From IMG/VR virus record IMGVR_UViG_3300027971_000055, positions 1 to 63,600 of that record: DNA of 63,600 nt. The stretch is one strand, 5' to 3'. This document shows positions 227 to 61,400 of this stretch, piece after piece. Each line of letters opens with the position of its first letter. Positions within the stretch are counted from its first letter, which is position 1. Made by a program: the position numbers and the translations under genes. The notes below the pieces were generated by a model that worked only from the letters and a program-made list of their open reading frames with translations, did not search any database and was not told the DNA's origin. The stretch is from a virus.

Positions 227-397
227 GTGATTATCTTTGCTAGTTATAAAAACTTTTACTTGTACCTTTGCCCTTTTAGCACCACATTCAGCGGCATAAA
301 GAGTTTCAGCAGTATTTAAAGTAGGTATAAAAAAGCTATCCCCTATGTCCATATACTCAAAAGGGAACAGCCATGTAGGTTCACTAAGCTGATCCAG
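197..397 (-). CDS. Small conserved-looking phage protein with probable CUG start
   Basis: An open frame of 66 codons follows the primase-helicase gene on the same strand, overlapping its end by 14 bases. The only plausible start placed correctly after the Shine-Dalgarno (AAGGAG, spacing 6) is CTG at 395-397; an in-frame TAA lies just upstream and the first ATG is about 15 codons in. The product contains FPFEYMDIGDSFFIPTL and ends GVRVWRVA, an ending I associate with small phage proteins. Of the three variant sites between the two copies that are specific to this gene, two are synonymous and one is Thr/Ile, as expected for real coding sequence. Its 3' end overlaps the giant virion gene antisense by 30 bases. 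Function is unknown. An alternative is initiation at the internal ATG. Confidence 0.65.
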   Translation of the reverse strand: MDQLSEPTWLFPFEYMDIGDSFFIPTLNTAETLYAAECGAKRAKVQVKVFITSKDNHLGVRVWRVA

Positions 398-3302
398 ATA
401 TATCTCCTTTTACTTTAGCTAATATATCTTTCTTTTGAAATGCATAACACATCAAGTTATACTCTGAACTACTTGCATCTTTCCAACCTGTAAGCATTCG
501 TTTCTTTTCTTCCCAGAATTTAATATCTGAATTAGCAATACGCTTTTTAAAGTCAGCTTTATTAATATCTAACTCAGCAATTAAGTAATTATTAAATATG
601 CTTCGTGGTATATAAATAGTACCTGTATCATCTTCGGCTCTAATAACTAATGGAGTTCTTGGTTCATCTGCAACCTTACCATCTCTCATAACTAAAGTGC
701 CAGAATGGTTCTTAATTAAAAACTCTGTAAGAATATTCTCATAGTCGATAGTATTAAACTGAATGACATTGTTCTTAATATTAAGCATCTCAGTTATTAA
801 TCGTTCGTATATTTTTTCTACATTACAGTTATCTAATATACCATATTCAAGTGCAACTTCTCCAGCACCCAAAGGTAATGCAATTAAGTTATGGTAATAT
901 CTATCTCCAGGATCAGAGCCATAGTCTTTAACAAATCTATCTACCCATTTTTGATATCGTGGGCCTAGTTTTTGGTCTTCATTAAAATGCCTAATGATTT
1001 CACCTTTATTCTCTAAATCATATATAGCCTGTATAAATTTAGACCCTGCATGACCGTAGTTAGCTTTAAAGGCTTCAAACACACGCTTACCGTAGTTTAA
1101 ATCTGTTTGTAATATCTTAGGTTGACCTAGCATAAACTCAATAATACGAGCCACTTCACCGTTAGGGTCATGTTTTAATGCGGTCAACTTATCGTATATA
1201 GATTTATTAGATGTAAACAAAGCTATCATACTAGCTGATGCCTCAAAGTCTCGTTCAGCATTTACCGATGCTTGCATTTTAAGTTTAGGTTTACCAGTAG
1301 AAATCATATGCGACATTTCTGATAAGTCTTCAGCATCTAAGTTAGTAACCTCATCGTGAGCATAAGTCATATTATGTAGCGTGCTAATTCTTCCTTTTAA
1401 AGCATTAAACGTACCGCCCTTTTTAGCGTGAACATATAACACTTTAGGGTTACCCCATATACTTACAGCAGAGAATAACGCACCTGTTTTAGCCGCACCT
1501 GTATCGCCTGTTAGACAAATAATGCCGCCATCAGTATTAGTATAAGCCATAAGCGGAGAAGCAAAGCCAGCTAACATAGCATATTGATGTAGTTCCATAC
1601 CAGGAGTATCTAGTTGATTAGCGGCTTTCTTCCATTCTTCAAACGTACCTTTAGGTGCCATATGCTTACCAATCTTATCTGTAATGGCTGAGAAAGGTGA
1701 CTGGGAAACTGAGCCATCTCTTTTATATTCTCTATCACCTATTACAAAAGAAGTTCTGTCGTCATCTGTCCAACCCATTTGATTTCGCATAATGTCTGCT
1801 TCTACTTCGTTAGATAAAACTTTACCCCACTTAATTAAATAATCCATAACTATTATTACCTCGTTCTTTTTTAAATATATGCCATGATTGGCTAAATGTG
1901 ATGCAGTTTTAATTGGCTCGTAGGCTAATCTCATTGGAAATAAAAACTCTACGGGTTTGTCTTTAGGAAATGTGCATCTAAGTAATAAACAGTCCCCGTC
2001 TGCCGGATTTTTAAGTCTTTGCTTAGGTTTAAAATGATATTCTGATACTTCAGATGGTTCTTTTTCTAGGTATTGATTAGTATCAGGGTCCCATACAGGT
2101 AGTTCTTTTTTATATATACCACCATTAGCCCCATGAATATATGGAAACATACTAGCTGGTAATATGAAAGGTTCTTCGGTAGATAATGCAGTGGTGGATT
2201 CTTGAGTTATTACATTACCTACTTGTTCTTGTTTAGGCACGGGTACCATTTTAAATACCTTACCTAACTTAAGTGGATTAGTTATTCTGCCTCTATGTGG
2301 GCAACCATTACATCCGCCAGGATTAGCATTGTCAAAAGAACCACAAGAATGTACCCCATCAAAAGAAGCCGCTTTTAGTATTGTATCTTCACGACTATAG
2401 TTCTTTGCTCCTTCTGATAAGGTATGTATAGCAGTCTCAGAATCAACGCAACGACTAGCTACGGTTAATCCAGCAGTCCATAATTCATAGCTAACATCGT
2501 TGGGATGCTCCATCATATGTTTAATTTGGTTACATCCAGTACCTAACATACTTTCTTTTAAAATTTTATCAAAGCTAGCTTCCCAATTATCTAGCCCATG
2601 CATTCTTCTTTCTTCTTCGGTTAGACCTTTAAATGCGGCTTTTAATACATCTTCTGTTGAAGAGTCTACTGGTCCTAAAAATTCTTTAAATTCTTCAAAG
2701 ACGTAAACAGGTAATTCATCGCTAATTACTTTCGTTGGTGATGGTGGATTAGTTTTGTAGTTAAGGCAGTTAGGTGCACGAGTAATGCGACCTTTATCAG
2801 ATGTCACTGATGGGTCAATTTTAAAGTCTTTATCTAAACACAGTTTTTTAAATTTTTCAGAGTATTCTTTCCATTCTTCAATAGGGATGTCTGCATTAAA
2901 AGCCCACCATGCCCATATACCTCGACCAGAATCTACTCTAATAGGTGGTGGTAAGTTAGTCTCAATAAGAAATTTATCTAATGCATTGTTAGCTTCTTCT
3001 TTGGATTTATATTTTTTATTGTTTTTTTCTTCGTCAGGTATGCCTTCTTGTGGGTCTACATCTAGGTCTACAAAGAGTGATCTAGAATATAAAGCGTTGT
3101 CTTTTCTTGAATAACTTTTTTGAGAACTGTGGGTTACATATATATTGTGACCGTCTTGTTTTAACTCGTTTATTTTAGGTTCTACTTCATCTATAGACTC
3201 TACGTAATAATTTGTTGTTTTTCCTGTAGTCTCTATGGTCGCTATACAGTAGACCCCTTGAGATGGCAATATCTTTTTATAAAATTCTGTTATGCCTATC
3301 AT
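384..3302 (-). CDS. AEP-type primase fused to DUF927-like helicase
   Basis: This is a predicted replicative primase-helicase of 972 residues. The N-terminal archaeo-eukaryotic primase signature is FVDLDVD (D79, D81, D83), then SGRGIW near 125 and a conserved R-x-P-x-C-x-N-Y-K block at 175-183. A Cys cluster (C320, C331, C334) may bind a metal. The C-terminal ATPase has Walker A GDTGAAKT (599-606), Walker B with D650-E651 and a TSN sensor near 697-699, as in DUF927/SF3-like helicases. A longer frame reaches a TTG at 3332, but the ATG at 3302 follows AGAAAG at good spacing. No DnaB or T7 gp4 homologue is visible, so this is probably the main replicative primase and helicase. A partial variant copy lies at 62755-63600. 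Confidence 0.88.
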   Translation of the reverse strand: MIGITEFYKKILPSQGVYCIATIETTGKTTNYYVESIDEVEPKINELKQDGHNIYVTHSSQKSYSRKDNALYSRSLFVDLDVDPQEGIPDEEKNNKKYKSKEEANNALDKFLIETNLPPPIRVDSGRGIWAWWAFNADIPIEEWKEYSEKFKKLCLDKDFKIDPSVTSDKGRITRAPNCLNYKTNPPSPTKVISDELPVYVFEEFKEFLGPVDSSTEDVLKAAFKGLTEEERRMHGLDNWEASFDKILKESMLGTGCNQIKHMMEHPNDVSYELWTAGLTVASRCVDSETAIHTLSEGAKNYSREDTILKAASFDGVHSCGSFDNANPGGCNGCPHRGRITNPLKLGKVFKMVPVPKQEQVGNVITQESTTALSTEEPFILPASMFPYIHGANGGIYKKELPVWDPDTNQYLEKEPSEVSEYHFKPKQRLKNPADGDCLLLRCTFPKDKPVEFLFPMRLAYEPIKTASHLANHGIYLKKNEVIIVMDYLIKWGKVLSNEVEADIMRNQMGWTDDDRTSFVIGDREYKRDGSVSQSPFSAITDKIGKHMAPKGTFEEWKKAANQLDTPGMELHQYAMLAGFASPLMAYTNTDGGIICLTGDTGAAKTGALFSAVSIWGNPKVLYVHAKKGGTFNALKGRISTLHNMTYAHDEVTNLDAEDLSEMSHMISTGKPKLKMQASVNAERDFEASASMIALFTSNKSIYDKLTALKHDPNGEVARIIEFMLGQPKILQTDLNYGKRVFEAFKANYGHAGSKFIQAIYDLENKGEIIRHFNEDQKLGPRYQKWVDRFVKDYGSDPGDRYYHNLIALPLGAGEVALEYGILDNCNVEKIYERLITEMLNIKNNVIQFNTIDYENILTEFLIKNHSGTLVMRDGKVADEPRTPLVIRAEDDTGTIYIPRSIFNNYLIAELDINKADFKKRIANSDIKFWEEKKRMLTGWKDASSSEYNLMCYAFQKKDILAKVKGDISGSA

Positions 3303-3340
3303 GTTTATTCTTTCTATTTTTAGAGACAACAATGCCCCAT

Positions 3341-3394: not shown

Positions 3395-3706
3395 TTAAAT
3401 CTTATTGTTTATATTTAACTCTAAATATTTTTTAGCATCGAGAAGAGTTACAACAGGTAATTGCCCGTCATGTAACCCCTCTTTAACCAATACTATAAAG
3501 TTTTCAATTTTTGTACAATTTTTATCTCTAATAGCTTTACCCCTAAACCAACTATGAATAGTCATTCTTGACACTTCAAAAACTTCTGCTACATATTGCG
3601 CAGGTAGGTTTGATTTAACACATAGTTTTGCCAATCGTACCCCTAATCTTTTTGGGTCAAAGTTTTTTAAGTCTAATAGAAACTCTTCACTATATGGTCT
3701 TGCCAT
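3395..3706 (-). CDS. Helix-turn-helix DNA-binding protein
   Basis: This 103-residue protein has a helix-turn-helix at about residues 33-58: LPAQYVAEVFEVSRMTIHSW, in which AEVFEVSRMTIHSW reads as turn plus recognition helix, followed by a basic FRGKAIR stretch. That suggests an XRE-like or transposon-type HTH. It starts with ATG (MARPYSEE). It lies between the possible ssDNA-binding protein and the primase, so it may regulate replication genes or assist initiation. It has no ligand or peptidase domain typical of a CI/LexA-type repressor, and no integrase is present, so a lysogeny role is unsupported. Confidence 0.7.
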   Translation of the reverse strand: MARPYSEEFLLDLKNFDPKRLGVRLAKLCVKSNLPAQYVAEVFEVSRMTIHSWFRGKAIRDKNCTKIENFIVLVKEGLHDGQLPVVTLLDAKKYLELNINNKI

Positions 3707-12876: not shown

Positions 12877-13230
12877 TTAGTAAAATACATGGTTGTTTAT
12901 TATAACACGGGGTTTCATTCCCCATTGGTTGTTAAGTGCGACATTGTGAAAATGTGATGCGCCTTTAGAATAATCTTTCGCTTTAAAGTTTAATATTTGA
13001 CGGGCAAGTTTATAGTAATTAGTATTGTATAGAGCCGATGGCTCGGGTGGTTTTAGTTTACCATACCATGAAAACTGATAGGGCTTTCTCATTTCAATAC
13101 AAACATTTTCGGGTTTAAAATCAGCACGTCTGTATAGAACATATCCTACTGCGATTTGTCCTGCTAGTCCTTCTCCCCTTGCTTCCATGAATATAGTTGT
13201 GGCTAAACAAGCCAACGCTTGGTCTATCAT
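12877..13230 (-). CDS. SleB-like cell wall hydrolase
   Basis: This 117-residue protein matches the catalytic domain of the SleB/Hydrolase_2 family: LATTIFMEARGEGLAGQIAV (predicted catalytic E16 in MEARGE), VGYVLYRR, VCIEM and QFSWYG. These enzymes cut glycan strands of peptidoglycan. It has no signal peptide and lies in the early/replication arm, far from the holin-lysozyme cassette at 47358-48293. It could be a second endolysin or an enzyme acting at another time. Start ATG follows GGAG. Confidence 0.82.
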   Translation of the reverse strand: MIDQALACLATTIFMEARGEGLAGQIAVGYVLYRRADFKPENVCIEMRKPYQFSWYGKLKPPEPSALYNTNYYKLARQILNFKAKDYSKGASHFHNVALNNQWGMKPRVIINNHVFY

Positions 13231-13265
13231 AGCACGCTCCTTAAATAAGAAACCAGTTCTTTAGT

Positions 13266-13493
13266 TTAATTAGATGGGTTTTTGAGTTCTAACTCTTTGA
13301 GCATTTGAAGTATGTGAATGGCTTTGTCTATATCTTTTAAGCCACCTTTGTCGCGCCATCGTGTAATATATTTAATAGCGTTGCCTTCGGGAAATGGAAT
13401 ATTGTTTGCATGGATATATTCCATCGGTTGAATTTTGTATTTTTTGTAGTGGTCTCCATCCACTTGAATTTCTAATGCACTTTTTTCTGTCAT
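13266..13493 (-). CDS. DUF3310 protein
   Basis: The 75-residue product fits DUF3310, a domain common in phages and often labelled nucleotide kinase without firm proof: QVDGDHYKKYKIQPMEYI, GNAIKYITRWRDKGGLKDI and a final amphipathic helix. It starts with ATG after GGAG and overlaps the VRR-NUC gene stop by four bases. A role in nucleotide metabolism is likely but the biochemistry is not settled. Confidence 0.85.
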   Translation of the reverse strand: MTEKSALEIQVDGDHYKKYKIQPMEYIHANNIPFPEGNAIKYITRWRDKGGLKDIDKAIHILQMLKELELKNPSN

Positions 13494-13777
13494 TCTATCT
13501 CCTTTATTAGAGTTAATAGTTCTTGCATATTACCTTCATTTATTACTATTGCCAAGCCATTTCTACTGATTATTTGGTCTATGTTGTATTTTTGTAACGC
13601 AGTTAGTGTGCCTTTGCCTGCCTTACATTCTATTGCTATGAACCTGCCTTTGTAGCAAGCGATGATGTCGGGGATACCACTCTTTCCGTATCCCCCTGTT
13701 TGTGGTGAGAAATGATATGCGTTAATATCATCTAAGATTTTTTTTACTTTTACTTTTACTCTTCCTTCGGGTGTCAT
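13490..13777 (-). CDS. VRR-NUC domain nuclease
   Basis: The 95-residue protein is a minimal VRR-NUC: GKSGIPDIIACYKGRFIAIE then CKAGKG, giving the catalytic D ... E-x-K of the PD-(D/E)XK fold, followed by a helix with LQKYNIDQI. Phage VRR-NUC proteins are structure-specific nucleases, some resolving four-way junctions. It overlaps the previous gene by 50 bases and the next by four. Its start, MTPEGRVKVKVKK, has only a weak Shine-Dalgarno. Confidence 0.88.
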   Translation of the reverse strand: MTPEGRVKVKVKKILDDINAYHFSPQTGGYGKSGIPDIIACYKGRFIAIECKAGKGTLTALQKYNIDQIISRNGLAIVINEGNMQELLTLIKEIE

Positions 13778-16435: not shown

Positions 16436-17683
16436 CTATTCTCCTTTTTTAATAATCTTACCACTTGGCACTTTTAGATTTTCATTCTGAGTTACAAGCC
16501 ACATAGTCGGTGCAGATATATTCCATTGGATATCATTCTCTACATACCCATCTGTAAATACAATCACACCTTCTGCTACTATCTTATGTTTATTTATATA
16601 ATCACTAACACTACTAACATGAGTTCCACCACCACCTAATGGTTTTAATAGTTTCGCTATGTTTTCATATTGGGAAGGCTCAAACTTCTGTTCACCATGC
16701 ACTTCTGTATCCCACCATAAAACACGAACACCACTAGGGGAACACACCGAACAAATAGATGCCAGTTCCGATGCAAACTCAGTAAGTTCTAGGCTACCTA
16801 TTGAACCCGATGTATCAATCGCTATGATTAACTCGCCAACACTATTAGTTTCAAGGCTTGGCATATAAATATCATTAGCCATAAGTCGTTTGTTAAATCT
16901 TCGCCAAGTAAATTCTTCACTACCTTTGGTTGATGATGTAACAAAATCTCTTAGTTCATGTCGCCAATCAATCTTAGGTGCTAACAATTCTTCAATGGCT
17001 CTAGGCATCTTACTGCCCATTCTGCCTGCAAGTATGCCACCTTGTCGTAATGCCCTATCAATCTTATCTGATAACTCACCGACTTGTTCGGGTGTCATTT
17101 GCTCTGATGCATTAAAGTCATGTTCATCTAGTGTTTTAGTAGGCATACCCCTACCACCTTGTGAATTACCATTACCCTTACCACCTTGTGAATCTCCATC
17201 ACCACTACCTTCACCTTCTAATGATTGTGCGTTCTTTGCACGCTCACTATTTTCCTTCTTGAGATAGTCATACACTTGCTTGACCGACCAATTATGAAAC
17301 TTGTCGTGATACAAGCCACCATCGGGCAATTTACATAATGACTTATCATTAAGGTGTGTAATTACATCATTAACAACATAATCTGCTGATGCATTCATTA
17401 AGTGTGGGTTATCTTTAAATTCATTCTTAAACCTACCAATATGTTTTAGTGCTACATGAAGGTTCTCATGCAATACCAATGCTCTGAGTTCTTGGTCTGT
17501 TAGTTTAGATATAAATTTATTACCATACTTCTTGTTATACCCATCGGTGTATGCCGTTATTTCTTCATCAACTACAACACTATTACCCATCAACATAATG
17601 CCCGAGTAGAGTGCCGTTTCTGCGTGTTTCATCAATGCGACATGGGCTTTCTTTAGTCGCATACTTTGGTCTATGCTATTCAT
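16436..17683 (-). CDS. HExxH metallopeptidase-VWA protein (DUF2201 type)
   Basis: This 415-residue protein joins two domains. Residues 1-150 form a zinc-metallopeptidase-like domain with LHENLH (H72-E73-x-x-H76). A Gly/Ser/Glu-rich linker spans about 155-180. Residues 285-415 form a von Willebrand A domain with a complete metal-ion adhesion site: DTSGS (D290, S292, S294), T354 in GGGGTHVS and D378 in VFTDGY. The pattern matches the DUF2201 family, which partners with MoxR AAA+ ATPases; the ATPase at 17696-18757 is the next gene upstream. The VWA is expected to bind a partner via Mg2+, and the peptidase-like part may cut or merely bind it. Confidence 0.88.
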   Translation of the reverse strand: MNSIDQSMRLKKAHVALMKHAETALYSGIMLMGNSVVVDEEITAYTDGYNKKYGNKFISKLTDQELRALVLHENLHVALKHIGRFKNEFKDNPHLMNASADYVVNDVITHLNDKSLCKLPDGGLYHDKFHNWSVKQVYDYLKKENSERAKNAQSLEGEGSGDGDSQGGKGNGNSQGGRGMPTKTLDEHDFNASEQMTPEQVGELSDKIDRALRQGGILAGRMGSKMPRAIEELLAPKIDWRHELRDFVTSSTKGSEEFTWRRFNKRLMANDIYMPSLETNSVGELIIAIDTSGSIGSLELTEFASELASICSVCSPSGVRVLWWDTEVHGEQKFEPSQYENIAKLLKPLGGGGTHVSSVSDYINKHKIVAEGVIVFTDGYVENDIQWNISAPTMWLVTQNENLKVPSGKIIKKGE

Positions 17684-17695
17684 AACTATCTCCTA

Positions 17696-18757
17696 TTAAA
17701 ATAACACATGGTTATCAACTGCCCATTTAGAAATCTCTGCGTTGTTTCTTACCAACTTCATACCATTCTTATGACGCACCATCATAGTAAAGAATACTGC
17801 CTGCAACTCACTACTTTCCATGCGATTTACAAACTTCATAAACTTACTAACTTCGTCTTGTGTTTTCAATGTGTCTGTAGCTTGGAACATCAACATCAAC
17901 AACGCTGATACTTCTGTCGGCATAGCAATCTCAGTAGGTTTCTCTAGTATGCTTTCAAACTTCGGTAAAGACTTTTCTATCTGTAGGAACGCTGACATAT
18001 CGCCTGCACATGACTGACCAAGCGTGCCTGCTAGTGCGACCATCGTTGCATTCTCACCTAGTATCTCTTTGTTATCCACAATGACTGATGATTTTGCCAA
18101 TGAACGGGGTGATACAAACGATAACATCGGCTTGCTTGGATTAAAGATATAGGGATTATCTGCTTGCCCATCATCTAAGTAACTATTCAAACATCTTGGG
18201 AACATATGAACCCATGCTCTTATCAACGAGTGAACACCATTATCGCCTGCCCACTTGAGCCAACTATCTGCATTAGGCTTTTCCATACGCATGATACAAA
18301 CACGATTGCCTGCATGAGCCAACATACTATCGCCCACACCATCGCTTGCATTGTTACTTGTTGCAAACACTATGCTACCTTCGGGCAACGGGGTATCGCC
18401 AACACATCTCTCTAGCATTAGTCTTGTGAATATAACTTGTAGTAGTTTCGGTGATTTCATAAACTCGTCTAGCAATATGACTTTAGGTTTTGGTGATGAT
18501 AGTTTAAACAAACTACCCACATAGCTTTCCAACGATTTTGTTTCGTGATTAGGGATAGTCATAGCTATGTCTGACATATCTTTAACAGGGCAATCTACAT
18601 AGATGTAATCATACCCATCGCCTAAATCTTCTTCTAACATACTTAATAGCGATGTCTTACCACAACCTGGCTCGCTCTGTATCACAGGTGTAAGTGTCTT
18701 ACCGATTACAGGAATTAACTTTCTTAGTTCATTGATACTTACTGATACTAGGTTCAT
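17696..18757 (-). CDS. MoxR-like AAA+ ATPase
   Basis: This 353-residue ATPase has Walker A SEPGCGKTS (28-36), Walker B VILLDEF (D97, E98), sensor 1 FATSNN (131-136) and the arginine-containing SFVSPRSLAK block typical of MoxR proteins. MoxR ATPases act as chaperones that load metals or remodel partners through VWA proteins. It lies between the DUF3150 gene and the HExxH-VWA gene. The ATG at 18757 is set by the leader GGAGAATAGT. Confidence 0.9.
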   Translation of the reverse strand: MNLVSVSINELRKLIPVIGKTLTPVIQSEPGCGKTSLLSMLEEDLGDGYDYIYVDCPVKDMSDIAMTIPNHETKSLESYVGSLFKLSSPKPKVILLDEFMKSPKLLQVIFTRLMLERCVGDTPLPEGSIVFATSNNASDGVGDSMLAHAGNRVCIMRMEKPNADSWLKWAGDNGVHSLIRAWVHMFPRCLNSYLDDGQADNPYIFNPSKPMLSFVSPRSLAKSSVIVDNKEILGENATMVALAGTLGQSCAGDMSAFLQIEKSLPKFESILEKPTEIAMPTEVSALLMLMFQATDTLKTQDEVSKFMKFVNRMESSELQAVFFTMMVRHKNGMKLVRNNAEISKWAVDNHVLF

Positions 18758-18837
18758 ACTATTCTCCATTTATATAATTAACTGATAGAACGATGCTAAA
18801 CTACACTTGTTCAATTACAACTAACACTTCATTTAAT

Positions 18838-20324: not shown

Positions 20325-20439
20325 CTTGTTCCCCTTCATCTACTGAAAACCTTATCCACCTAGTCCCATTACAAATTTCTACAACTTCGTAGTCTAGGTC
20401 TGCGTCATCTAATACTTTATATAGTTCTTGTGGTGTCAT
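20317..20439 (-). CDS. 40-residue hypothetical protein
   Basis: An ATG at 20439 follows GGGGG at spacing 8. The product begins MTPQELYKVLDDAD and ends FSVDEGEQDE; a short helix followed by a beta pair (YEVVEICNGTRWIRF). It fills the gap between the zinc-ribbon gene and the 57-residue gene, overlapping both slightly, which supports it being real. Function unknown. Confidence 0.6.
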   Translation of the reverse strand: MTPQELYKVLDDADLDYEVVEICNGTRWIRFSVDEGEQDE

Positions 20440-20663
20440 CTTACATTCCCCCCTTTGTTATTTAACCCATGTAAGTCTGTTAGGTTTGTTATCACCATGT
20501 AATTACTCTTATGCATAGGTGCTATTGTGTGTTTCTTCATGCGAGATATTATTTCACCACACTTTAAGCAAGTGTTATAGCCTAGTTTCCGTCTGCCTGC
20601 CACAATGTCATCACCACACTTGATGCAATCACTTAGTTTCTTAGTCTGTGTCAAGTTCGTCAT
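20436..20663 (-). CDS. Small zinc-ribbon protein (DksA/TraR-like finger)
   Basis: The ATG at 20663 follows GGAGAACAAC, the same leader as the next gene upstream; 75 residues result. It carries C-x2-C ... C-x2-C in CIKCGDDIVAGRRKLGYNTC then LKCGE, like a DksA/TraR zinc finger, and a conserved-looking tail HKSNYMVITNLTDLHGL. Proteins of this type can bind RNA polymerase. The longer frame from 20747 lies inside the neighbouring gene and is rejected. Confidence 0.7.
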   Translation of the reverse strand: MTNLTQTKKLSDCIKCGDDIVAGRRKLGYNTCLKCGEIISRMKKHTIAPMHKSNYMVITNLTDLHGLNNKGGNVR

Positions 20664-20859
20664 GTTGTTCTCCACCGATTGCTCGGATAAAATGTAGTAG
20701 TTCCCGACACACTTCATACCTACCATGCACGATGTCGTGTTCCCCATCTAATATCGTAGGGTTTAGCCCATTCACAACTTCTGCGTCATGTTTGAGTTCA
20801 TCTTTGAGCCACTCGGTAATATGAATTACCATGTTCTTATACTTCAATGGTCTTGCCAT
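20641..20859 (-). CDS. Hypothetical small protein
   Basis: This 72-residue protein (MARPLKYKNMVIHITEWLKD) is acidic towards the C-terminus and predicted helical. It has a strong leader (AAGGAGAACAAC) and is the first gene after repeat cassette 20870-20905. It overlaps the zinc-ribbon gene by 23 bases. Function unknown. Confidence 0.65.
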   Translation of the reverse strand: MARPLKYKNMVIHITEWLKDELKHDAEVVNGLNPTILDGEHDIVHGRYEVCRELLHFIRAIGGEQHDELDTD

Positions 20860-21398: not shown

Positions 21399-21584
21399 TT
21401 ATCTAAGAATTGTAACTAACAATAAAAACGCTGATATACCCCAACCTATTACTTCGCTGATAATCATTCGTCTATACTTTTCTTTGGGGATAGTGATGTA
21501 TTCCGACATATTTACTTCCCTGTCATAGTTATAAGGGCTTTGCATTTTAATTTTTTGTCCTTTGAATATTGGTCTTGTTTTCAT
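21399..21584 (-). CDS. Small membrane protein
   Basis: The 61-residue frame (MKTRPIFKGQKIKMQ) has GGAG eight bases from its ATG and ends with a hydrophobic helix (IISEVIGWGISAFLLLVTIL). A second start, MSEYITIPKEK at 21509, has its own GGGAAG and would give 36 residues keeping the same helix. Both may be used. It is the first gene after the repeat cassette 21599-21633 and promoter 21710-21738. Confidence 0.6.
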   Translation of the reverse strand: MKTRPIFKGQKIKMQSPYNYDREVNMSEYITIPKEKYRRMIISEVIGWGISAFLLLVTILR

Positions 21585-21598
21585 AATCTAATCTCCTA

Positions 21599-21633
21599 TT
21601 TAGTAAGCGTGCTTAACTACGCTTGGTTTTAAT
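21599..21633 (-). repeat. Leader cassette repeat upstream of 21399-21584
   Basis: Minus-strand AACCAAGCGTAGTTAAGCAC followed by GCTTACTAAATAGGAG. Third forward copy of the hairpin-plus-ribosome-site leader, located between promoter 21710-21738 and the first gene of this transcript. Confidence 0.75.
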
Positions 21634-21709
21634 AAAATTTCTAACACTACTTTTTGCTGTGCGATTAGCTGATGTATCATGTATTAAATACGCTACTCAC
21701 ACAATACCC

Positions 21710-21738
21710 ATTATAGTATAACTTTACATATAACACAA
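21710..21738 (-). promoter_or_regulatory. Sigma70-like promoter next to the octamer array
   Basis: TTGTGT, a 17-base gap and TATAAT read away from the octamer array toward 21399-21584. The gap is identical to that of the 19898-19926 promoter. It is about 90 bases from the nearest octamer, so a protein bound to the array could influence it. Confidence 0.65.
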
Positions 21739-21825
21739 GGGTTTCGGCTGACTATCTCACTCGTAGTTTTCACTCTATTTTGCGTAGCTTGGGGTTGATT
21801 AATGCTAAGTTATTGATTTATATGA

Positions 21826-22242
21826 TGTTCCAATTGTTCCAACGATGTTCCAAGTTTTCACTTTACTAATAAGAACAAAATAGGCTTGATAAATCGTGTG
21901 CTGAAATCGGGTAAGTCTTTGTTTTATATATATTATATTATATATTTATTAAGTAAGTAGTATGCTAGAAAATGGTCTTGTTCCAATGTTCCAAGTTTTT
22001 TTAAGTGAATATATATGCTAGCATTTTTTATGTTTGCTCTGCGTGAATCTAACTTAGTCTGACTAAATTTCTCAAATATATTCCCTATTGCAAAAAACTT
22101 GGAACATTGGAACAACCTTTATAATCAACAACTTAGCTTGGAACATTGTTGGAACAACTTTACATATAATTGGAACACTTTTTGGAACAAGACTGGAACA
22201 ACCTATCACCTATTAATATCTTATACCATACAACTTGGAACA
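21826..22242. repeat. Mirror array of 13 octamers; candidate replication origin or control region
   Basis: Five TGTTCCAA octamers (starting 21826, 21835, 21846, 21979, 21987) are followed by eight in inverted orientation, TTGGAACA (starting 22099, 22107, 22138, 22149, 22170, 22182, 22193 with one mismatch, and 22235). Between and within the two sets lie a nearly pure A/T block (21921-21955) and the palindrome ATGCTAGCAT (22015-22024). Bases 21978-22001 and 22092-22115 form a perfect 24-bp inverted repeat. Iteron arrays beside an AT-rich unwinding zone are typical of replication origins; multiple operators are the main alternative. The 1,028-base stretch 21634-22661 holds no convincing gene. 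Confidence 0.8.
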
Positions 22243-22333
22243 AGCCTGATACGCCAATACTTTACATAAGCATGGTTAGAGTATATCTTACACGACACAA
22301 TACAAGTTCACAACCAACATAACCAGCTAAGCC

Positions 22334-22368
22334 AAAACCAAGCGTATTTAAGCACGCTCACTAAATAA
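22334..22368 (+). repeat. Copy of the AAGCGT inverted-repeat family, flipped
   Basis: Plus-strand AACCAAGCGTATTTAAGCAC followed by GCTCACTAAATAA matches the leader cassette without a ribosome site. It lies in the non-coding region beyond the octamer array. Confidence 0.65.
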
Positions 22369-22423
22369 CAACCACGCTAAATTATATCTTCAACCACGCA
22401 ACCACACGCACTTCACACTCAAC

Positions 22424-22452
22424 ACGCTCGTCGACATAGAACTGGTCTCAAT
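22424..22452. repeat. GCTCGTCGACATAGAACTGG element, copy 1
   Basis: The block CGCTCGTCGACATAGAACTGG followed by T-C-T-C-A-A recurs at 23486-23513 with two changes and in degenerate form at 22583-22604. Each copy lies just beyond a UUCG hairpin terminator or in the same non-coding region. Binding site or processing signal; function unknown. Confidence 0.6.
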
Positions 22453-22624
22453 TAGGTGGCAGGCATTCGGTGGCTAGAAATTTTATAGTTTGAGCAGATT
22501 GATTAGGCAGCGGAAGGGAATTGTATGAGCTAAGAATATAACAGATGATAAAACACACATTAAATATTTAATATATACACACACATCGACAATCACTGGT
22601 TTCAAAAATTGAGACCAAAAAAAA

Positions 22625-22646
22625 GCAGAGAGCCGAAGCTCTCTGC
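22625..22646 (-). terminator. Intrinsic terminator with UUCG tetraloop
   Basis: On the minus strand GCAGAGAGC-TTCG-GCTCTCTGC is followed by eight T. The 9-bp stem with a stable UUCG loop and U tract is an excellent Rho-independent terminator for the 22662-23345 gene, insulating it from the octamer region. Confidence 0.93.
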
Positions 22647-22661
22647 CTAGTCACTACTGTA

Positions 22662-23345
22662 TTACTTGTTAAACTTTTTAATCAAAGCCTCGCCTTGTGA
22701 TAACCAAGAGCCAAACTCTTTTTTAACCGTAGCAGTTAGAAGCTCATCGCCTCTTGCCTCGGCAGTTTTAATCCTAGCTTTGAGGGTCTTGATATTATCG
22801 TTAAAAGCCTCGACAATAGTTTTTACTGCACGACCCTTTTTATTAGGATTTTCAATACCAACTACTTGACGGATTGAAGCTAACAAGTTTTTCATACCAG
22901 CTGATACATGGTCTTTACCTTTTTTACGCAACGGCTTAGCAAGAGCATAAATATATGGGTCACTCTTAGCTAGTGCGGTAAACTTTTGCTGAGTATAACC
23001 CATCGCTAAGCCTACGGTCATATGCACCTTAATTGCATTTTTATTCTTAGCGTCATTAAACTCTGCCTCAGTGACCTGTTGCATTTTGTTATCTTTAACC
23101 ATGTTGAAAGTATCATGGTCTTTTGCATACCACTCTTTAAAGCGTCTAGCAAAACCGAGTTTAATCTCGGCTACATCATTGTCACTAGGCTTGGTTAGAA
23201 TGTTTGGCACTCTATCCAATATTTTCTTAGCAGTGCCTAGCATGTCACTATATGCACCTTGATACTCATATGCTAAGCCACTAAGAGATTGAGAGGATAC
23301 TGCTACTGCCTTGCTTACTGCTTCTACTACTTTTGCTTTTTTCAT
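22662..23345 (-). CDS. Hypothetical basic helical protein
   Basis: This 227-residue protein is Lys/Ala-rich and helical with no membrane span (MKKAKVVEAVSKAVAVSSQS; KTLKARIKTAEARGDELL). It has its own promoter (23407-23435), Shine-Dalgarno GGAG and a very strong terminator directly after its stop, so it forms a single-gene transcript, probably highly expressed. It lies beside the octamer array. A nucleoid-like or origin-binding role is possible from composition and place, but I recognise no family. Confidence 0.7.
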   Translation of the reverse strand: MKKAKVVEAVSKAVAVSSQSLSGLAYEYQGAYSDMLGTAKKILDRVPNILTKPSDNDVAEIKLGFARRFKEWYAKDHDTFNMVKDNKMQQVTEAEFNDAKNKNAIKVHMTVGLAMGYTQQKFTALAKSDPYIYALAKPLRKKGKDHVSAGMKNLLASIRQVVGIENPNKKGRAVKTIVEAFNDNIKTLKARIKTAEARGDELLTATVKKEFGSWLSQGEALIKKFNK

Positions 23346-25622: not shown

Positions 25623-26252
25623 GTGACACAGCAACCCATGCAAATGCAAAAAACCCAACAAAATCAAACATATAACGGTAAAGAAGTCGTTATAATACCC
25701 CATTTAGAAGAAAATATCTCTCTACCTAGAAACGCTCGTGCTGCATTACCCGAATTAAGTAACGAAGAAGAACTAGAAATGATGGTTAATACCATTAAAT
25801 TGATGTCAGACTTAACCGGACAGCCTATAGAAGCTACGCAAGAAGACATAGACGAGGCAAAAACGGTAATAAAAACCATTATTAAAGAACCTGAAACCAA
25901 ATTACAGCTTAAAAAGTACAAAAATTCAGTATTAGCTAGCTTAGCTGGGATGGTTGCAGAGTTAGATGCACAAGTAGTAGATGATTTAAAGGATTTAAAG
26001 ACGTTTGTTGTTAATGGTCTAATAAAAGAAGCAGCAACTGCAGAAAAATCTAAGGAAAGAATCACAGCACTACGTGCAATTGGTGAGGTAGATGGAGTAG
26101 ATGCATTTAAAAAGACTACAGAAGTCATACATAAGAACATGTCACTCGATGATATTGAAGAAAGACTAAGAACATTAGTAACTAGGATTGAAAAACGAAT
26201 ACAAGAAAAAGAACATAATGTAATAGATGCAGAAATAGTTAAAGATGAGTAA
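25623..26252 (+). CDS. Terminase small subunit (putative)
   Basis: The 209-residue product precedes the large terminase gene and overlaps it by eight bases. The C-terminal half is helical, with ITALRAIGEVDGVDAFKKTT then EVIHKNMSLDDIEERL, a pattern I associate with small terminase subunits of aquatic phages, which bind the packaging site. The frame opens with a GTG (MTQQPMQ) but an ATG five codons later is equally possible; neither has a clear ribosome site. Confidence 0.7.
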   Translation: MTQQPMQMQKTQQNQTYNGKEVVIIPHLEENISLPRNARAALPELSNEEELEMMVNTIKLMSDLTGQPIEATQEDIDEAKTVIKTIIKEPETKLQLKKYKNSVLASLAGMVAELDAQVVDDLKDLKTFVVNGLIKEAATAEKSKERITALRAIGEVDGVDAFKKTTEVIHKNMSLDDIEERLRTLVTRIEKRIQEKEHNVIDAEIVKDE

Positions 26253-53899: not shown

Positions 53900-55390
53900 A
53901 TGAATATTATTAAATTACAAGATGAACTAAGAAGTGTACCAGATAATGCACTAATTGGTTATGTTCAAAATCCTACAGGTCATGTACCTAGTTATCTAGC
54001 ATTAAGTGAATTACAACGTCGTAAAGATATGCGTGAAAAATATCAATCACAACAAGCACCTCAATCAAGTGTAGCAGATGACTTAGAACAAAAGGCTGCA
54101 CCACAACCCCAAGCTCAAGGTGTTGCAAGTCTTCCTGTACCTGAAACTATGTATCAAGATCAAAACTTTGCTTCGGGTGGTATTGTATCGTTTGCTGGCC
54201 CTGAGGGTAGCTATGTTATACCATCTAAAACTCCACAACAATATTATCAAGGTATTGCAGGGAATAAGGATATCGGTAAGTCATTTATGTTTAATAAGTT
54301 TGAAACTCCGTATGATGAGGCTATTAACTACTATAGTGGATTAAAACAAAATGCTAATAATCCAGAAGCAAAAAGACAGTTAGAGGATGCTGTTCAAGAA
54401 TTACAACTACAAAAATATAGATTTACACGTAGTAAAGAAGATCCTACTGAAAGAATGACACAAACAGGTTTAAAAGGTGATGCATCTGGTAAACCAATAC
54501 CTCCATCATTAACATTAGCAAGCATGAAAAATAAAATAGAAGGAAATAATCCTTCACCGCAAAACCCAGTTGATGAAGTTAAAAGAGGTGCAACAGGTCA
54601 AAAACCACCAAATGAAACACCTGTAGCTGATACTGTAGATGTAACAGGCGATCCTTATTACTTTGAAAAAAGACCTGAAGATGCGGCTGAAACAGAAAGA
54701 GATAGATATAAACAAATGTATGGTGATGACCCATTTGTTAAACGTAGCCAAACTAGATTAGAATCTATGGATAAACGCGCTAAATCTATGGACGATAGCA
54801 ACTTAGGATTAGCATTAATGTCGGCTGGGTTTAAAACTATGCAAGGTACTTCTCCGTATGCATTAGCTAATATTGGCGCGGGTGCTGAAGCTGGTGTTAA
54901 ATCTTATGGTGACACACAAAAACAATTGGCAGAGCTTGATGAAAAACGCTTTAATGTGGATTCTAAAATTGCGGATGCGGAAAGAGCGGTTAAACTTGCT
55001 GCTATGCAACACGGCTTTAAAAGTGAAGAATATAACAAAGCTTCTAATGATCTTGTTAGAACAAAAATTATTGAAGGTAAGCTTGACATTGAGAAATATA
55101 AAGTTCTTGCTGGCACTAAAGAAACACAAGCTCTTATGAAACAAAAATCAGATTTTCTTACTAAGAGAGATACATACCTTAAAAATAATTACTCAATAAA
55201 AAATGCTCTTGATGTTTATAACAATAAAGCAGCTTTTGATAAACTTCCTGAAAATGAAAAACAATCTGTATTAAAAGATGTAAACACATATAATCAGTAT
55301 GTACAAGAATTAAAAATAAGTTACCCACTAGCTAATATGGATTTACCTACTAGGGATCCAATTGCTCTTTTAAATAAAACTAGACAATAA
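53900..55390 (+). CDS. Ejection/internal virion protein
   Basis: The 496-residue protein starts with NIIKLQDELRSVPDNALIGY then VQNPTGHVPSYLALSELQRR, which I recall as typical of aquatic podophage internal proteins, has FASGGIVSFAG (GG motif) near 90 and a long C-terminal coiled coil (about 300-430). Disordered Pro/Gln linkers between. Confidence 0.72.
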   Translation: MNIIKLQDELRSVPDNALIGYVQNPTGHVPSYLALSELQRRKDMREKYQSQQAPQSSVADDLEQKAAPQPQAQGVASLPVPETMYQDQNFASGGIVSFAGPEGSYVIPSKTPQQYYQGIAGNKDIGKSFMFNKFETPYDEAINYYSGLKQNANNPEAKRQLEDAVQELQLQKYRFTRSKEDPTERMTQTGLKGDASGKPIPPSLTLASMKNKIEGNNPSPQNPVDEVKRGATGQKPPNETPVADTVDVTGDPYYFEKRPEDAAETERDRYKQMYGDDPFVKRSQTRLESMDKRAKSMDDSNLGLALMSAGFKTMQGTSPYALANIGAGAEAGVKSYGDTQKQLAELDEKRFNVDSKIADAERAVKLAAMQHGFKSEEYNKASNDLVRTKIIEGKLDIEKYKVLAGTKETQALMKQKSDFLTKRDTYLKNNYSIKNALDVYNNKAAFDKLPENEKQSVLKDVNTYNQYVQELKISYPLANMDLPTRDPIALLNKTRQ

Positions 55391-55409: not shown

Positions 55410-58400
55410 ATGGCATTAATAGACGATTTACGCGCTGAATATCCTGGCCGGTACAGGACAATGACCGATAAGGAAATAGCCGACCAATTATATAAAGATC
55501 ACTATGCTACCGAAATGCCCAAGATTTCTTTCTATAAGCAGTTAGGTATAGACGTTCCCGAATCAAGTTATGCTGAGATAATAGGAAGAGATTTACCATT
55601 AGCTGGCGCACAGGGTGTAGTAGGTCTATATGAAGGTGTTAAAGGTCTTACAGGGTTTGTCCCATTATCTAAAGGTAAAATTCCTAAAGCAATAGAGAGT
55701 GCAGAAAAATCTGTTTTTGGTGGCTCAGCTTCAGATTTACAACAATATCTAGAGTCCTTAAAATCAGAAGGACAACAAATGGTATCGCAAGGTGCCGCAG
55801 AAATTCCCTCAACAGGTAACTTATTACGTGACGCTACTGGGCAACTTATATATGCTGGACAAAACCCACAACAAATTGGACAAATAGTTGCCCAGTCATT
55901 ACCTTCTACTTACGGAGGAGCATTAATTGGTAGGGGTATAAGTGCAACTGGAGCTAAATTTGGTAAGGACATAACTCCTATTACTGCAGCTGCATCGGGT
56001 GAAGGTACGTTAGCTGCTGGTTCTGGTTTAGAATCCGTCCGTCAACAAACTGAAAATAAAGAAGTTACAACCCCTCAACAACTTATAACTGCATTTAGTG
56101 GTTATATGACTAATAAACTAGGTAGGCTTGGTAATAGGGCTGCTAAATACTTAGGTGTTGATGATATGGATGTTATATTAGTACGTGGTAATATGGGTTC
56201 TACACCTGCAGCAAATCAAAAAGCACAAAGTAAATTAGTAGCTGGATTAAAATCAGCACTTAGTGAATCAGTGTTTGAAGAACTTCCACAATCAACACAA
56301 GAACAAATATCACAAAATATAGCTTTAGGTAGACCTTACGATGAAGGTGTTGCAGAACAAATGGCTGCGGGTATAATTGGTGGTGCGGGAGCAGGGTTTG
56401 GGTTTGGTACATATAATCAGTATAAAGTAAATAAAGCATTAGATAATATGCCACCGCCCCCAACAGACGTAGACGCAGAGCCACCAGGTATAGATATAGA
56501 AGTACCAAAAACAGACACAAAGAAAAATGCCAAAACAAGAAAAGATTTAATAGATTCTATAGAAGATGCAGAAACAAAAAAATCATTAGAAGAACTTTTA
56601 GGTAAGAAAGGGAAACCAAGTGGAACTCAACAGACAACAGCTGGAACTAGCGATGAAGTATCTGGAGGATCAGATGATGGAACTACCGGAGGAACTAAAA
56701 AACCTGTCGGAGGTGGAGTGGATGGGGCTGCAACTGATGAACTCACAGATAAGACTGGAGAGGGAAGAAGCGACGTTGCATTAGAAACAATTACTACAAA
56801 CGACGTAGGTAAACCTTTTCCGTCAACAGGTCAAGCACACAAATTTCGTAGAGATAATAAACTTGAAAACTTATATTCTGTTATTACACAAGCTGACGGC
56901 ACTATTGCTCTTGTGCCAAAGATACCAGTTACAGAACAAAAACCCCTAGTAACTAAAACTAAAAAACCTGCAGTGACAAAAGAACCCGAAGTAGCTGCAG
57001 AAGAAACAGAAGAAGATATACCAGATGAAGAAATTGGTTGGGAAAAGTTTGAAGAAACTAAACCTGACGGTACTATAACTTCGGGGTTTAGAAGAAAACA
57101 AACTACTACTCAGAAAGATGCCCCAGTAGTTATATCAGCTAAGACGCCTAAATCTACCGAAGTATTAAAATCAGAAGCGGAACTTACAGAAGCTGATAAA
57201 GCCGATTTAGAACAAGAAGAAGCTGATGAAGAAGCCGCAAGTCAAGCTAGAATAGATGAAGCTAATCAAGGTGGATTTGAAGACTTACCTGATTACGTTA
57301 AAATAGGTTCTAAATTAGCATCTAAATCCCCAATAGTACAAGCAGAAGAATCTGATCCTAATGCTAGTACTGAATCTAAACGACAAGAAGCTAGAAGATT
57401 AGCGGTTAAACATGCCGCATTTGATCAAGCGATGGATGAGTTTGATACTGTAAGTACTGAAGATTTTGACGCAAAATTAAAAGAATTAGCTAATGAAAAG
57501 ATGGAAGAACTAAAAAAAGAGATGCGGGATAAAGGAGCTACTGAAGAAGAAATTAATAATAAACTTAGTACTAAAAAATTCTCTATTAATAAGCCATTAG
57601 AGTTTATAAAAGGTTCTACTCAAGCACAACGTTTTAGTAACTATTATAAAGAGTTTAATAAATTTTTAGGTACGAAGAAATTAAAACCTAGAAGAATTAA
57701 ACAAGCAACTACTCGCGAAGAATTTACAGAAACTCTATCTAAACAAGAAAGAAAATTATTTAATAAAGCATACTCTAGCTATATAACTACACAAGTTAAA
57801 TCTTTAAAATCTGGTGTTGCTTCTGTTGATGAAACGGAATCTAATGAAGCTGCATTATATAGAAAACTACAAGACGAAATAGAGCTAGTAAAAAAGAAAA
57901 AAGGTAGTCAAGCTAAAGTAGATAAGTATAAAGCAGATTACGCGATAGCTCGTGCAAAAGCACAAAAAACTTCTTTAAGTAGACAAGTTGTTGAGACAGA
58001 TACATCTGCACTATCTGATAAAGTTGCTAACCTAGAACAAGCTATTAAAGACGGCGAGAATGAAATCAAGTCTATTAAAGCTGCTAAAAAAATTAAAGAT
58101 AAAGCAGTGCAAATTAAAGGCGTTCAAACACAGATTAATAAAGATAGGGTTGAATTAAAACTTGCTAAAACAGAGTTAGATACGGCTCAAAAAACTACTA
58201 CAGTATTAGGTGCACCGGGAAGATACACAAATATATCTACTGAAGAAACTAGAGCAACTGAAATATTAACTAAACAAAATAAAAAGAATAAGAAAAAAGA
58301 AAAGGCTATACAAGAAGGAAATCCTGAAGAAGTATTAGAGGTTCTTGATGATGAGACTGAAGAATTAGCTAAATCTATTATTGTTCAAGATAAGAAAAAA

Positions 58401-61400
58401 ACGGAAGAAGAAGCTAAAGAGAAAGCTAAAAAACAACCTAAGATTACTGTTGTTGGTAAACTAAATATGATTGTGTCTAAGAGTATTACTCAGGGCAAAA
58501 ACATAATTGAAACATTAGATGATTTATATGATAGTAAGAATAAAGAAAAAGCTCGTAGCTACCAACGCACAGCCTTGTTGTTTAGCGAAGTATTAAGCAA
58601 GCTTCAAAATAAAGGATATGATTTACCTAAAGTAGTATTTGGTCCAGTACCTAATGATCGTCCTGGTATGTATAATCCAGAAACAAATACTATTACTATT
58701 AATGATACTTCAGAAGTAGAGTACGGCAGGGTATTAGTGCATGAAACACTACACTATTTATTAGACCATATTGTAGAAGAGTATCAAAAAAGTCCTAATA
58801 GCAATTTGCTATCCCCGTCTCAAAAAGTATATCTAGGAGCTTTATTAGAATCTTATAACTATGCAAGACAAAATGCAGCTTCATTAGTTGAAAAAAATAA
58901 ATTTGATGCATCATTAAAAGATTTTGCAGAAGAAATCAAGACTATGGAGTTTAAAGAGTTCCTAGCTGAAGCCGTAGAAGGAATGCAGTTTTCAATTGCA
59001 TTGGGTAAATTAGAACCTATGCCTGGTCGTGTATTACCTTTTCTACGACAGTTAGCTAGAGATATTGCGGGTATGTTAGGCTTTAGACTTGAGCATAGAT
59101 TGCCTACTACAAAAGATAAACCGGTACAAGCATTTATATTAGAAGCAGTGTTAAACGATATTGAAAGTATTCTTACAGGTGAAGACTATGTGGCACCTAA
59201 TCCATTATTTAGATCTGGCGACGTATCGTTTGCTAGAAAAATAGATTTATCTGAAGATGCTGAAGAAGCTAGTAAAGCTGAAAGGTCTTTTGATGATTTA
59301 GTAGACAATGATAAGAGCACAATGTTAGAGCGCGGAGTTAAGTCTACAGTACAAAAAATGACTGAAACTTTTTCTAGTGGTCAAAATTTTATAGATGAAG
59401 TAGCTACTACTTTTTCTAATGAGAGGTTTGTATTAGAAAGACTCCAAGAAAACATGGACAGATCAGGGGCTATTAGCTATGCCGAAGATTCATTCAACAA
59501 TTTCTATGATTATATATCTACAGCTTTTGGTAAAGCACAGTGGTATTTGAAACAAAAAATAGAAAACCCAAGAAAAACTTATATTATAACTTTATCTAAT
59601 ATTGCAAACGCTAAAGGAGTATCTAATTCTAAAGCAGCTACAATACTTAAATATTATGCAATTGCATTTCATGCGCCTGAAAGACGTAAAACAAAATGGT
59701 TACTAAACGTACCACTAGAAAAATTAAATAAAATAAAATTTAAAAGTACTTTATTTGGCACTGTTGAAGACACCCCTGCAAATATAAGAGAAAGATTTTT
59801 TGACACTATTTCATCTGATGTTATAGCTAAATTATCTGAAGAGCAAAGAAAATATATAGCTGAGTCTTTAAAAAATGATTTAATTAGATTAGTTAACACA
59901 AAAGGCGCTATTACTGCAACAGGTTATAGCCCAGCGGGATATAAAAAAACAAACATAACAGAAGCTGATTATAACGTTATTGAAGACTTAAGTTTTAATG
60001 ATGAGCAAGTATGTAAAAATAAATATATGGCTGAATCATCAGAAATGAGAACTTTAGTACAACAATTTTTTGCTGCTAAAAAACAATTACAAGACGCAAC
60101 TACAGAATTAAATAGAATGGCAGGGTACTGGAGTAATGCTACTGATGCTATTGTTGAATTCTATGGATGGAAAAATTACTCTCCATTTAAAGTTAGGCCT
60201 GGAGATAGAGCAGCATTTAAATTAAATATAGAAGGGACTGCATTAGGACGTACAGGTAAAGATTATCCGGGTTCTAGATTTGAAGGTAGCAGTGCTGATG
60301 TAGAAAACCCAGTAAACCAAGTGTTGGTAGAAGCTGCACAATCTGCGGCAAGAGCTGGTGCTGACGGTTTAATGAGATCGATTATAAACGCAGTAAACCA
60401 AGGTTATTTAAAAGGTGTTTTAATAGATGGCAAGGGCAATGCTCGTAAAAAAACTGAACTAAATAAGCCTACTTATACCTTCCAAGAAAGATATACAGGA
60501 AAAGTAGATGAAGCAATATTAAAAAGACCTGACATATTATATGCATATAACAAAGATGGTTCTATGGATTTAGTAAAAATTACTGATTTAAAACAATTAG
60601 AAGCTATTCGTAGAACTTATTCTATTAATAATGAAAGCATAATAAATTCTGCAGTTCAGTTTTTAAATAAAGGTACAAGTGCCATGGGTCAAGGACATAC
60701 CAGATTAAACCCAGGTTTTGCTCCATACAATTTTGTACGTGACATTTTAACAAACGTTGGTATTGTATCCATGAAAGAGAACCCATTAGTTGGAGCTAGA
60801 ATTATTTCAGCAGTTGTAACAGAGATAATAGCTAAGGGAGGTATAGCTAAGGCAGCTAGATTCTCATTCTTATTCCATAACAACAGACTTGATGATATTG
60901 AAAAACTAGCAGAAAAAGATGGATTTTATAAATCATTATCAGAATATGGTAAAAAAGGTGGTAATGTTTCGGTAGTACAAGGGTTAAGCGCAGCTAGTGC
61001 TATGGAAATGCTATCTAAAGAATTAGATAAAAGTTTAACGCTACGTTCTAAAGATGACATACTTAAATATTTTGACATGTATAATTCTATGTTTGAGTTT
61101 GGCGCTCGTGTAGCAGTATACAGAGTTATGAAACGTCATTTCCAAGATCAAATGTCTAAAGAATTAAATGCATTGCCTAGCCAAGTAGAACAAGCGGCTA
61201 TTTTTAAAGCAGTTGCATATACAAAAAATTTAGCAAACTTTGAAGAACGTGGTTTATATACTAAACAATTAGGTACTTACTTTATGTTCTTTGGAGCAGG
61301 TGCTGTTGGTGCTAGACAAGCATTAAAAGCTTTAAGTCCTGCTTGGAGAAAGTATGAAGCAGTAGCTAATACGCTGCCCGAAAATATTCAAAAAGACCCA

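Follow-up and report, generated by a model that had tools for sequence, protein, structure and literature searches.

The origins of phage-inducible chromosomal islands (PICIs) always carry two sets of iterons that flank an AT-rich region (PMC6092414, in excerpt). Rep of Staphylococcus aureus pathogenicity islands (SaPIs) recognizes its iterons via the C-terminal domain, and two hexamers have been proposed for it; the C-terminal domain of Cch2 binds a repeat region (excerpts of PMC7581432). In P4, the alpha protein combines a Toprim-type primase, a helicase, and a C-terminal winged helix in one polypeptide (PMC4234260, in excerpt), and the annotated type 1 origin repeats read mostly TGTTCACC (GGTGAACA on the other strand). 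TcpK of plasmid pCW3 places its beta-wing in the major groove to bind tandem GGAACTTTA (PMC6137059, in excerpt). Here, we describe an array of octamers in a virus record of 63,600 bases (IMGVR_UViG_3300027971_000055; the whole stretch is called the window). Our data point toward positions 21800-22250 as a replication origin of the phage, probably an iteron origin of the SaPI/P4 type that would be bound by the C-terminal domain of a helicase, aided by IHF, and opened at an AT-rich block.

Counted on both strands, the exact octamer TTGGAACA occurs 14 times in the window, compared to 2.67 (standard deviation, 1.50) expected from shuffled sequences, and none of 100 shuffles reached 14. The original prediction, made from the sequence of the window, had named an even spread of the octamer over the genome as evidence against itself; in the full count, 12 of the 14 copies fall in 21826-22242. 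Its picture of five copies facing eight stands on the left, where five TGTTCCAA (that is, TTGGAACA on the minus strand) are found, and has to be corrected on the right, where seven copies are exact and the eighth, CTGGAACA at 22193-22200, has one mismatch. The 24-bp inverted repeat of the core is indeed perfect and also maximal, since it cannot be extended, and each of its arms holds two tandem octamers. The palindrome ATGCTAGCAT is present at 22015-22024, but a near-identical relative (L005) has ATGTTTGCAT at this site, and therefore, it is not conserved. An array score that combines GTTC on the left, GAAC on the right, and a tandem core reached 15.5 in the window, compared to at most 8.5 in 30 sequences from a first-order Markov model and 8.5 at the second-best place in the window, in line with the earlier statement that the organization is far from random. 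The features of the region are as follows:

21604..21625, plus strand: terminator-like hairpin that points toward the array and lies within an arm of a 34-nt inverted repeat
21806..21818, minus strand: exact match to the IHF consensus, left flank, in mirror orientation to 22123-22135
21826..21853, minus strand: outer left group of three TTGGAACA octamers (21826-21833, 21835-21842, 21846-21853), from the octamer count
21922..21952, no strand: run of 31 bases of A and T only, left of the core, candidate unwinding element
21978..22001, minus strand: left core arm of the inverted repeat, its two tandem octamers at 21979-21986 and 21987-21994
22002..22091, no strand: spacer between the core arms, with CACTGC/CACCGC in 16 of the 24 genomes described below, the window itself being without it
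22092..22115, plus strand: right core arm of the inverted repeat with two tandem octamers (22099-22106, 22107-22114)
22123..22135, plus strand: exact match to the IHF consensus, right side
22138..22242, plus strand: outer right group of octamers at 22138, 22149, 22170, 22182, and 22235, plus CTGGAACA at 22193
22339..22360, minus strand: terminator-like hairpin facing the array from the right
22623..22648, minus strand: terminator-like hairpin of 11 pairs and a T run, at the end of gene 22662-23345

Octamers lie on both sides of the A/T-only run, the arrangement of two iteron sets around an AT-rich region that is seen in SaPI/PICI-type origins. Exact matches to WATCAANNNNTTR, which we take to be the IHF consensus, number nine in the window compared to a chance mean of 7.0, and since this total is not above chance, the evidence lies in their position: two of them flank the array in mirror orientation, and 18 of 24 genomes have a match 64-99 bases right of the array center, where 0.0064 per genome is expected. 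A left-hand match within the chosen search interval was found in 5 of 24. Terminator-like hairpins are also in excess (four versus 0.8 expected); three are placed around the array and point inward, and two of the array-facing ones form the arms of an inverted repeat of 34 nt and 94% identity (21597-21630 and 22334-22367). The region without a convincing gene spans approximately 1.08 kb between a minus-strand open reading frame (ORF) of 61 amino acids (21399-21584) and a minus-strand gene for a protein of 227 amino acids (22662-23345); as the original prediction had it, 21585-22661 is free of genes, the only ORF of at least 60 amino acids being a 60-amino-acid frame with a TTG start. Neither Rfam (at gathering scores) nor ARAGORN gave a match in the window, and a comparison of the array region with 50,697 phage records at the DNA level gave none.

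The layout recurs in related genomes, the comparison that had been suggested as a check. Scans with the adjacent 227-amino-acid protein, the terminase, and the MoxR-like ATPase yielded 164 loci, many of which keep the array with the same word, while others keep the layout with another word. A search of 30 records, chosen mostly for length or for an array already seen, found the primase-helicase described below in 27, the three misses being records of 18-26 kb. At least 583 sequence stretches bear the primase. Twenty-six genomes, including the window, were read in pieces and scanned for left-hand GTTC and right-hand GAAC, and the array was present, once per genome, in 24; none was found in G002 and G022, fragments that may lack this part. 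In G017, two places tied at a score of 8.0, and 10694 was chosen by hand, as it matches the array position in a close relative. In six contigs of metagenome-assembled bacterial genomes with a relative of the primase-helicase, no place in the stretches examined had an array score above 8.5. What recurs is a set of outer words, an AT-rich block, two words facing two words, and IHF-like flanking sites. With the loci oriented by their terminase and replication genes, all 24 genomes have the AT-rich block to the same side of the core; raw orientation had made the module look inverted in the G020 group, an impression that did not survive orientation by terminase. The distance from GTTC to GAAC in the core is 103-136 bp across the 24 genomes and mostly 111-116 or 123-125 bp among 37 nonredundant cores. 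Its clusters near 103, 113, 124, and 132-136 bp are no more than suggestive of helical phasing, the null used being one that smooths the data themselves.

Further motifs were seen around the array. AACTGGT / ACTGGTTTC lies at 22436-22620 in the window and is located, and enriched, to the right of the array center in most of the 24 genomes. ACTTTACATA occurs three times in the window (21721, 22157, and 22259). CTTTACATA is enriched approximately 40-fold in the array regions (15 of 24 genomes) and resembles part of the TcpK target GGAACTTTACAG.

The word itself changes in concert. At least eight different words are found among the 24 genomes; consensus words include TGTTCCAA, TGTTCTAA, TGTTCAAT, TGTTCATG, GGTTCATG, TGTTCTCA, TGTTCGGT, AGTTCACA, and AGTTCCAT, and those of G011 and G001 are TTAGAACA and ATTGAACA. 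At the four positions around GTTC, the identity between left and right arms is 0.64 within a genome compared to 0.39 between genomes, and not one of 10,000 permutations of the right arms reached the observed match. Since some 10 scattered 8-mers with unlike spacers can hardly be homogenized by recombination, a trans-acting protein that reads the words naturally suggests itself. The proteins of the window that come into question most readily are as follows:

384..3332, minus strand: primase-helicase of 982 amino acids (DUF927), predicted initiator, with a winged helix in the C-terminal ~120 residues (about 859-982)
3395..3706, minus strand: helix-turn-helix (HTH) protein of 103 amino acids, encoded next to the primase-helicase and kept in nearly all relatives
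22662..23345, minus strand: protein of 227 amino acids, fold unassigned, whose family stays beside the array, possible accessory factor

The leading candidate for the octamer binder is, judged from a structural model, the C-terminal winged helix of the primase-helicase, which the original prediction did not name. The protein matches DUF927 (E = 1.5e-21), and primase/helicase kin were found. In the PDB, a profile of 17 primase-helicases hit Cch of the staphylococcal cassette chromosome (SCC; 5dgk, E = 1e-16) and, with E = 5e-15, 8tch, a pathogenicity-island protein named in the structure list as the SaPIBov1 initiation protein with helicase activity. As in SaPIs and PICIs, a Rep/Cch-family initiator helicase is encoded in the same element as the array. 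The NCBIfam Cch model matched with an E value of 1.3e-10, far below its cut-off, and the "Cch helix turn helix domain" of Pfam (HTH_56) was matched by 6 of 25 C-terminal domains, with a best E value of 1.6e-4. The C-terminal 190 residues were modeled with AlphaFold (pLDDT, 85.0; pTM, 0.60), and VIA-align was run on the candidate structures from Foldseek. The best agreement was with TcpK of pCW3 (Z = 10.0; root mean square deviation [rmsd], 2.4; 95 residues), followed by residues 453-557 of SaPIbov1 Rep (Z = 9.0; rmsd, 2.7; 95 residues). Next came Cch, with 151 residues aligned at Z = 7.6 and an rmsd of 6.1, then a single transcription factor at Z = 7.3, with unrelated winged helices at Z = 5. 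The origin-binding domain of P4, for which a structure has been solved, was not among the listed structures, an absence that carries no weight. The predicted initiator would, according to this model, share with those of SaPIs and PICIs a winged helix at the C terminus.

Although the helicase is of the Rep/Cch kind and is predicted to end in a winged helix as in SaPIs and PICIs, the window is a full-size phage with its own terminase large subunit on a record of 63.6 kb, not a satellite; because of this and because the origin is not directly 3' of rep, we do not file it as a PICI. It further differs in the strict mirror arrangement of the arms, in the distance of 18 kb between origin and initiator gene, in the IHF-like sites that are conserved in its group, and in the octamer that is rewritten in concert between relatives. 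P4 ori/crr has iterons of 8 bp as well, sharing only a TGTTC core with those of the window (TGTTCACC versus TGTTCCAA), and the alpha protein has the same union of primase, helicase, and C-terminal winged helix (PMC4234260, in excerpt). In contrast to the window, P4 has two separate regions with repeats of mixed orientation. Its primase is of the Toprim type; Pfam at E = 0.001 gave no Toprim match in the 982-amino-acid protein, which has a weak match to PriS (E = 0.075). The TcpK boxes in oriT of pCW3 are tandem 9-mers that are read by a similar winged-helix fold via the beta-wing (PMC6137059, in excerpt), but TcpK is a conjugation accessory protein, with no helicase, and not a replication initiator. 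Cch of SCCmec has DUF927 and is kin of the helicase of the window; the putative SCC origin differs in having three iterons, in a mobile cassette rather than a phage, and mirror arrays are not reported in the part of PMC7581432 consulted. The most telling coincidence may be the GAAC core, which appears to be common to three systems with this kind of domain (the window, TcpK, and P4).

In our model, the octamers are the iterons, and the C-terminal winged helices of the primase-helicase would fill both arms. Two oppositely oriented helicase assemblies would load on the core arms, as proposed for SaPI Rep, and host IHF might occupy the flanking sites and thereby bend the arms together. The duplex would open at the AT-rich block 21922-21952, and the helicases would travel apart. 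Priming would be carried out by the same primase-helicase and extension by DNA polymerase A of the phage (9582-11450), and the inward-facing terminators would keep transcription out of the origin. The iteron origin with an unwinding zone, one of two proposals in the original prediction, gains from the conserved architecture, the AT-rich block, the IHF-like sites, the inward hairpins, and the SaPI Rep/Cch-type helicase in the same genomes.

Several observations weigh against this model. The array is 18.5 kb away from the helicase gene, whereas a SaPI origin follows rep immediately. When the C-terminal model was searched with Foldseek by itself, no match had an E value below 0.001. The primase-helicase does not diverge in step with the word (partial correlation, -0.15), its wing alone hardly does (correlation, 0.11), and G020 and G023 share 96% of the primase-helicase and have different words. 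In this closest pair with different words, the HTH part is identical and the first wing strand has two differing residues; G026 and G028, whose words are nearly the same, have identical wings. The two comparisons are compatible with a code for the word in the wing and too few to claim one. The strict core pattern was found in only 7 of 45 further helicase-bearing records (reversed control, 1 of 50), and no array was found in Pseudomonas phage Rollin, whose helicase homolog is 24% identical. Six distant genomes were read whole (G040, G044, G060, G068, G070, and G075). Arrays of TGGAACA or TAGAACA are present in G044, G060, and G070; no array was found in G068 and G075, and G040 has none with a GAAC-kind word. 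All six encode the primase-helicase, the 103-amino-acid HTH protein, and other replication genes, and therefore, a GAAC array cannot be predicted from the helicase alone. GC skew speaks neither for nor against bidirectional replication from the array. The cumulative minimum, at 26,000, is confounded, as it coincides with the flip in gene direction. In the window, minus-strand genes to the left of the array differ from those to its right in third-position skew, and skew at fourfold sites differs in 10 of 11 comparable genomes; the genome-wide pattern does not match a simple origin.

Two of the distant genomes offer observations of their own. In G040 (L368, approximately 12900-13700), beside a relative of the 227-amino-acid protein, GTGCAAACCATGCAAGCAT / ATGCTTGCATGGTTTGCAC form an inverted repeat, an AT-rich tract lies outside it, and the word TGTGTCA recurs; read by eye, the origin layout may be preserved here with entirely unrelated words. 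In G070 (L375, 5946-6150), several tandem units of approximately 52 bases with TAGAACA in both orientations prolong the array on one side.

It is imaginable that the octamers of this probable origin are read instead by the adjacent family (22662-23345), as a separate initiator or accessory factor that recruits the primase-helicase; we regard this as rather unlikely. Homologs of the 227-amino-acid protein lie 223-643 bp from the array center in 13 of 24 close genomes and are found in three distant ones as well, a gene of similar size is at this place in 23 of 24 genomes (cut by the contig end in one of them), and G020 and G023, two genomes with different words, differ by a replacement of this gene. 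However, L102 and L103 have nearly the same adjacent protein and different words, an unlike protein is at this place in G004, G005, and G007, and the protein model has no recognizable DNA-binding fold (best Z = 6.3, on a helical pair). A PHROGs search with the family gave nothing convincing. The protein, one of two binders put forward by the original prediction, stays in place beside the array but does not track the word in L102/L103, and we do not take it as the word reader. The highest partial correlation with the word (0.43; 120 pairs) belongs to family 24 (53900-55387), which lies among plus-strand genes far from the replication genes and whose best Pfam match (E = 0.24) is not convincing.

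The second proposal of the original prediction, a large operator complex, would make the array an operator or enhancer for the minus-strand early genes, with a repressor on the octamers of both arms and looping by IHF. The array does lie upstream of the minus-strand gene arm, and the 103-amino-acid HTH protein, the other binder put forward earlier, is conserved beside the primase gene and has the best partial correlation with the word among the DNA-binding candidates (0.38). Yet changes of the word leave its recognition helix nearly untouched, and G020 and G023 have the identical protein despite their different words; we therefore set it aside as the determinant of the word. Promoter-like sites in the region are below chance (2 compared to a shuffle mean of 6.2), the terminator-like hairpins face inward from both sides, and the array goes together with the SaPI Rep-type helicase, so that an operator has little support and is improbable in our view. 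We give still less weight to a site of packaging, partition, or recombination in place of an origin, a very improbable reading that could draw on the multiple inverted sites, the IHF-like sites, and the terminase genes at a distance of approximately 3.4 kb. No partition or recombinase gene was found among the window proteins searched, and a scan for the core pattern found no array in DSL-LC04, HTVC027P, 023Pt_psg01, and HTVC023P. These four phages have related terminases and separately annotated primase and helicase genes, and they are outside the ten phage records that match the 982-amino-acid protein; that they lack both this helicase and the array also speaks for the origin model.

A broader claim, on which our judgment is evenly balanced, is that a widespread environmental phage family uses a SaPI Rep/P4-like origin whose iteron word was repeatedly rewritten in concert, as though specificity switched in initiator and origin at once. 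If the origin model holds, a phage group known from metagenomes would gain a concrete origin and initiator, and the mechanism of the self-loading helicases of SaPI, SCC, and P4 would extend from satellites and cassettes to full-size phages. Many related origins with one layout and different words would then bear on how a new specificity evolves when more than 10 sites and one protein have to change together. Should the word be set by the beta-wing of the helicase, these phages would provide, on an unchanging architecture, a natural series of initiator-origin pairs that exclude one another. In the open-licence literature, we found no work on phage genomes with DUF927 and a replication origin and, on iteron or inverted-repeat origins of uncultivated phages, nothing on such an array; in a term search, a pelagiphage genome paper (PMC9599517) proved to contain neither replication origin nor origin of replication, iteron, or GC skew.

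Some other genes of the window deserve mention. The product of 16436-18769 is a VWA/metallopeptidase-like DUF2201 protein that is paired with the MoxR-like ATPase and is also present in all six distant genomes. A DksA-like zinc-finger protein is encoded at 20436-20747. The gene at 24523-24852 matches phrog_17776 (function unassigned); its product is presumably an A-type iron-sulfur carrier (HesB/IscA). The plus arm is closed by a single ORF of 2,395 amino acids (55410-62597).
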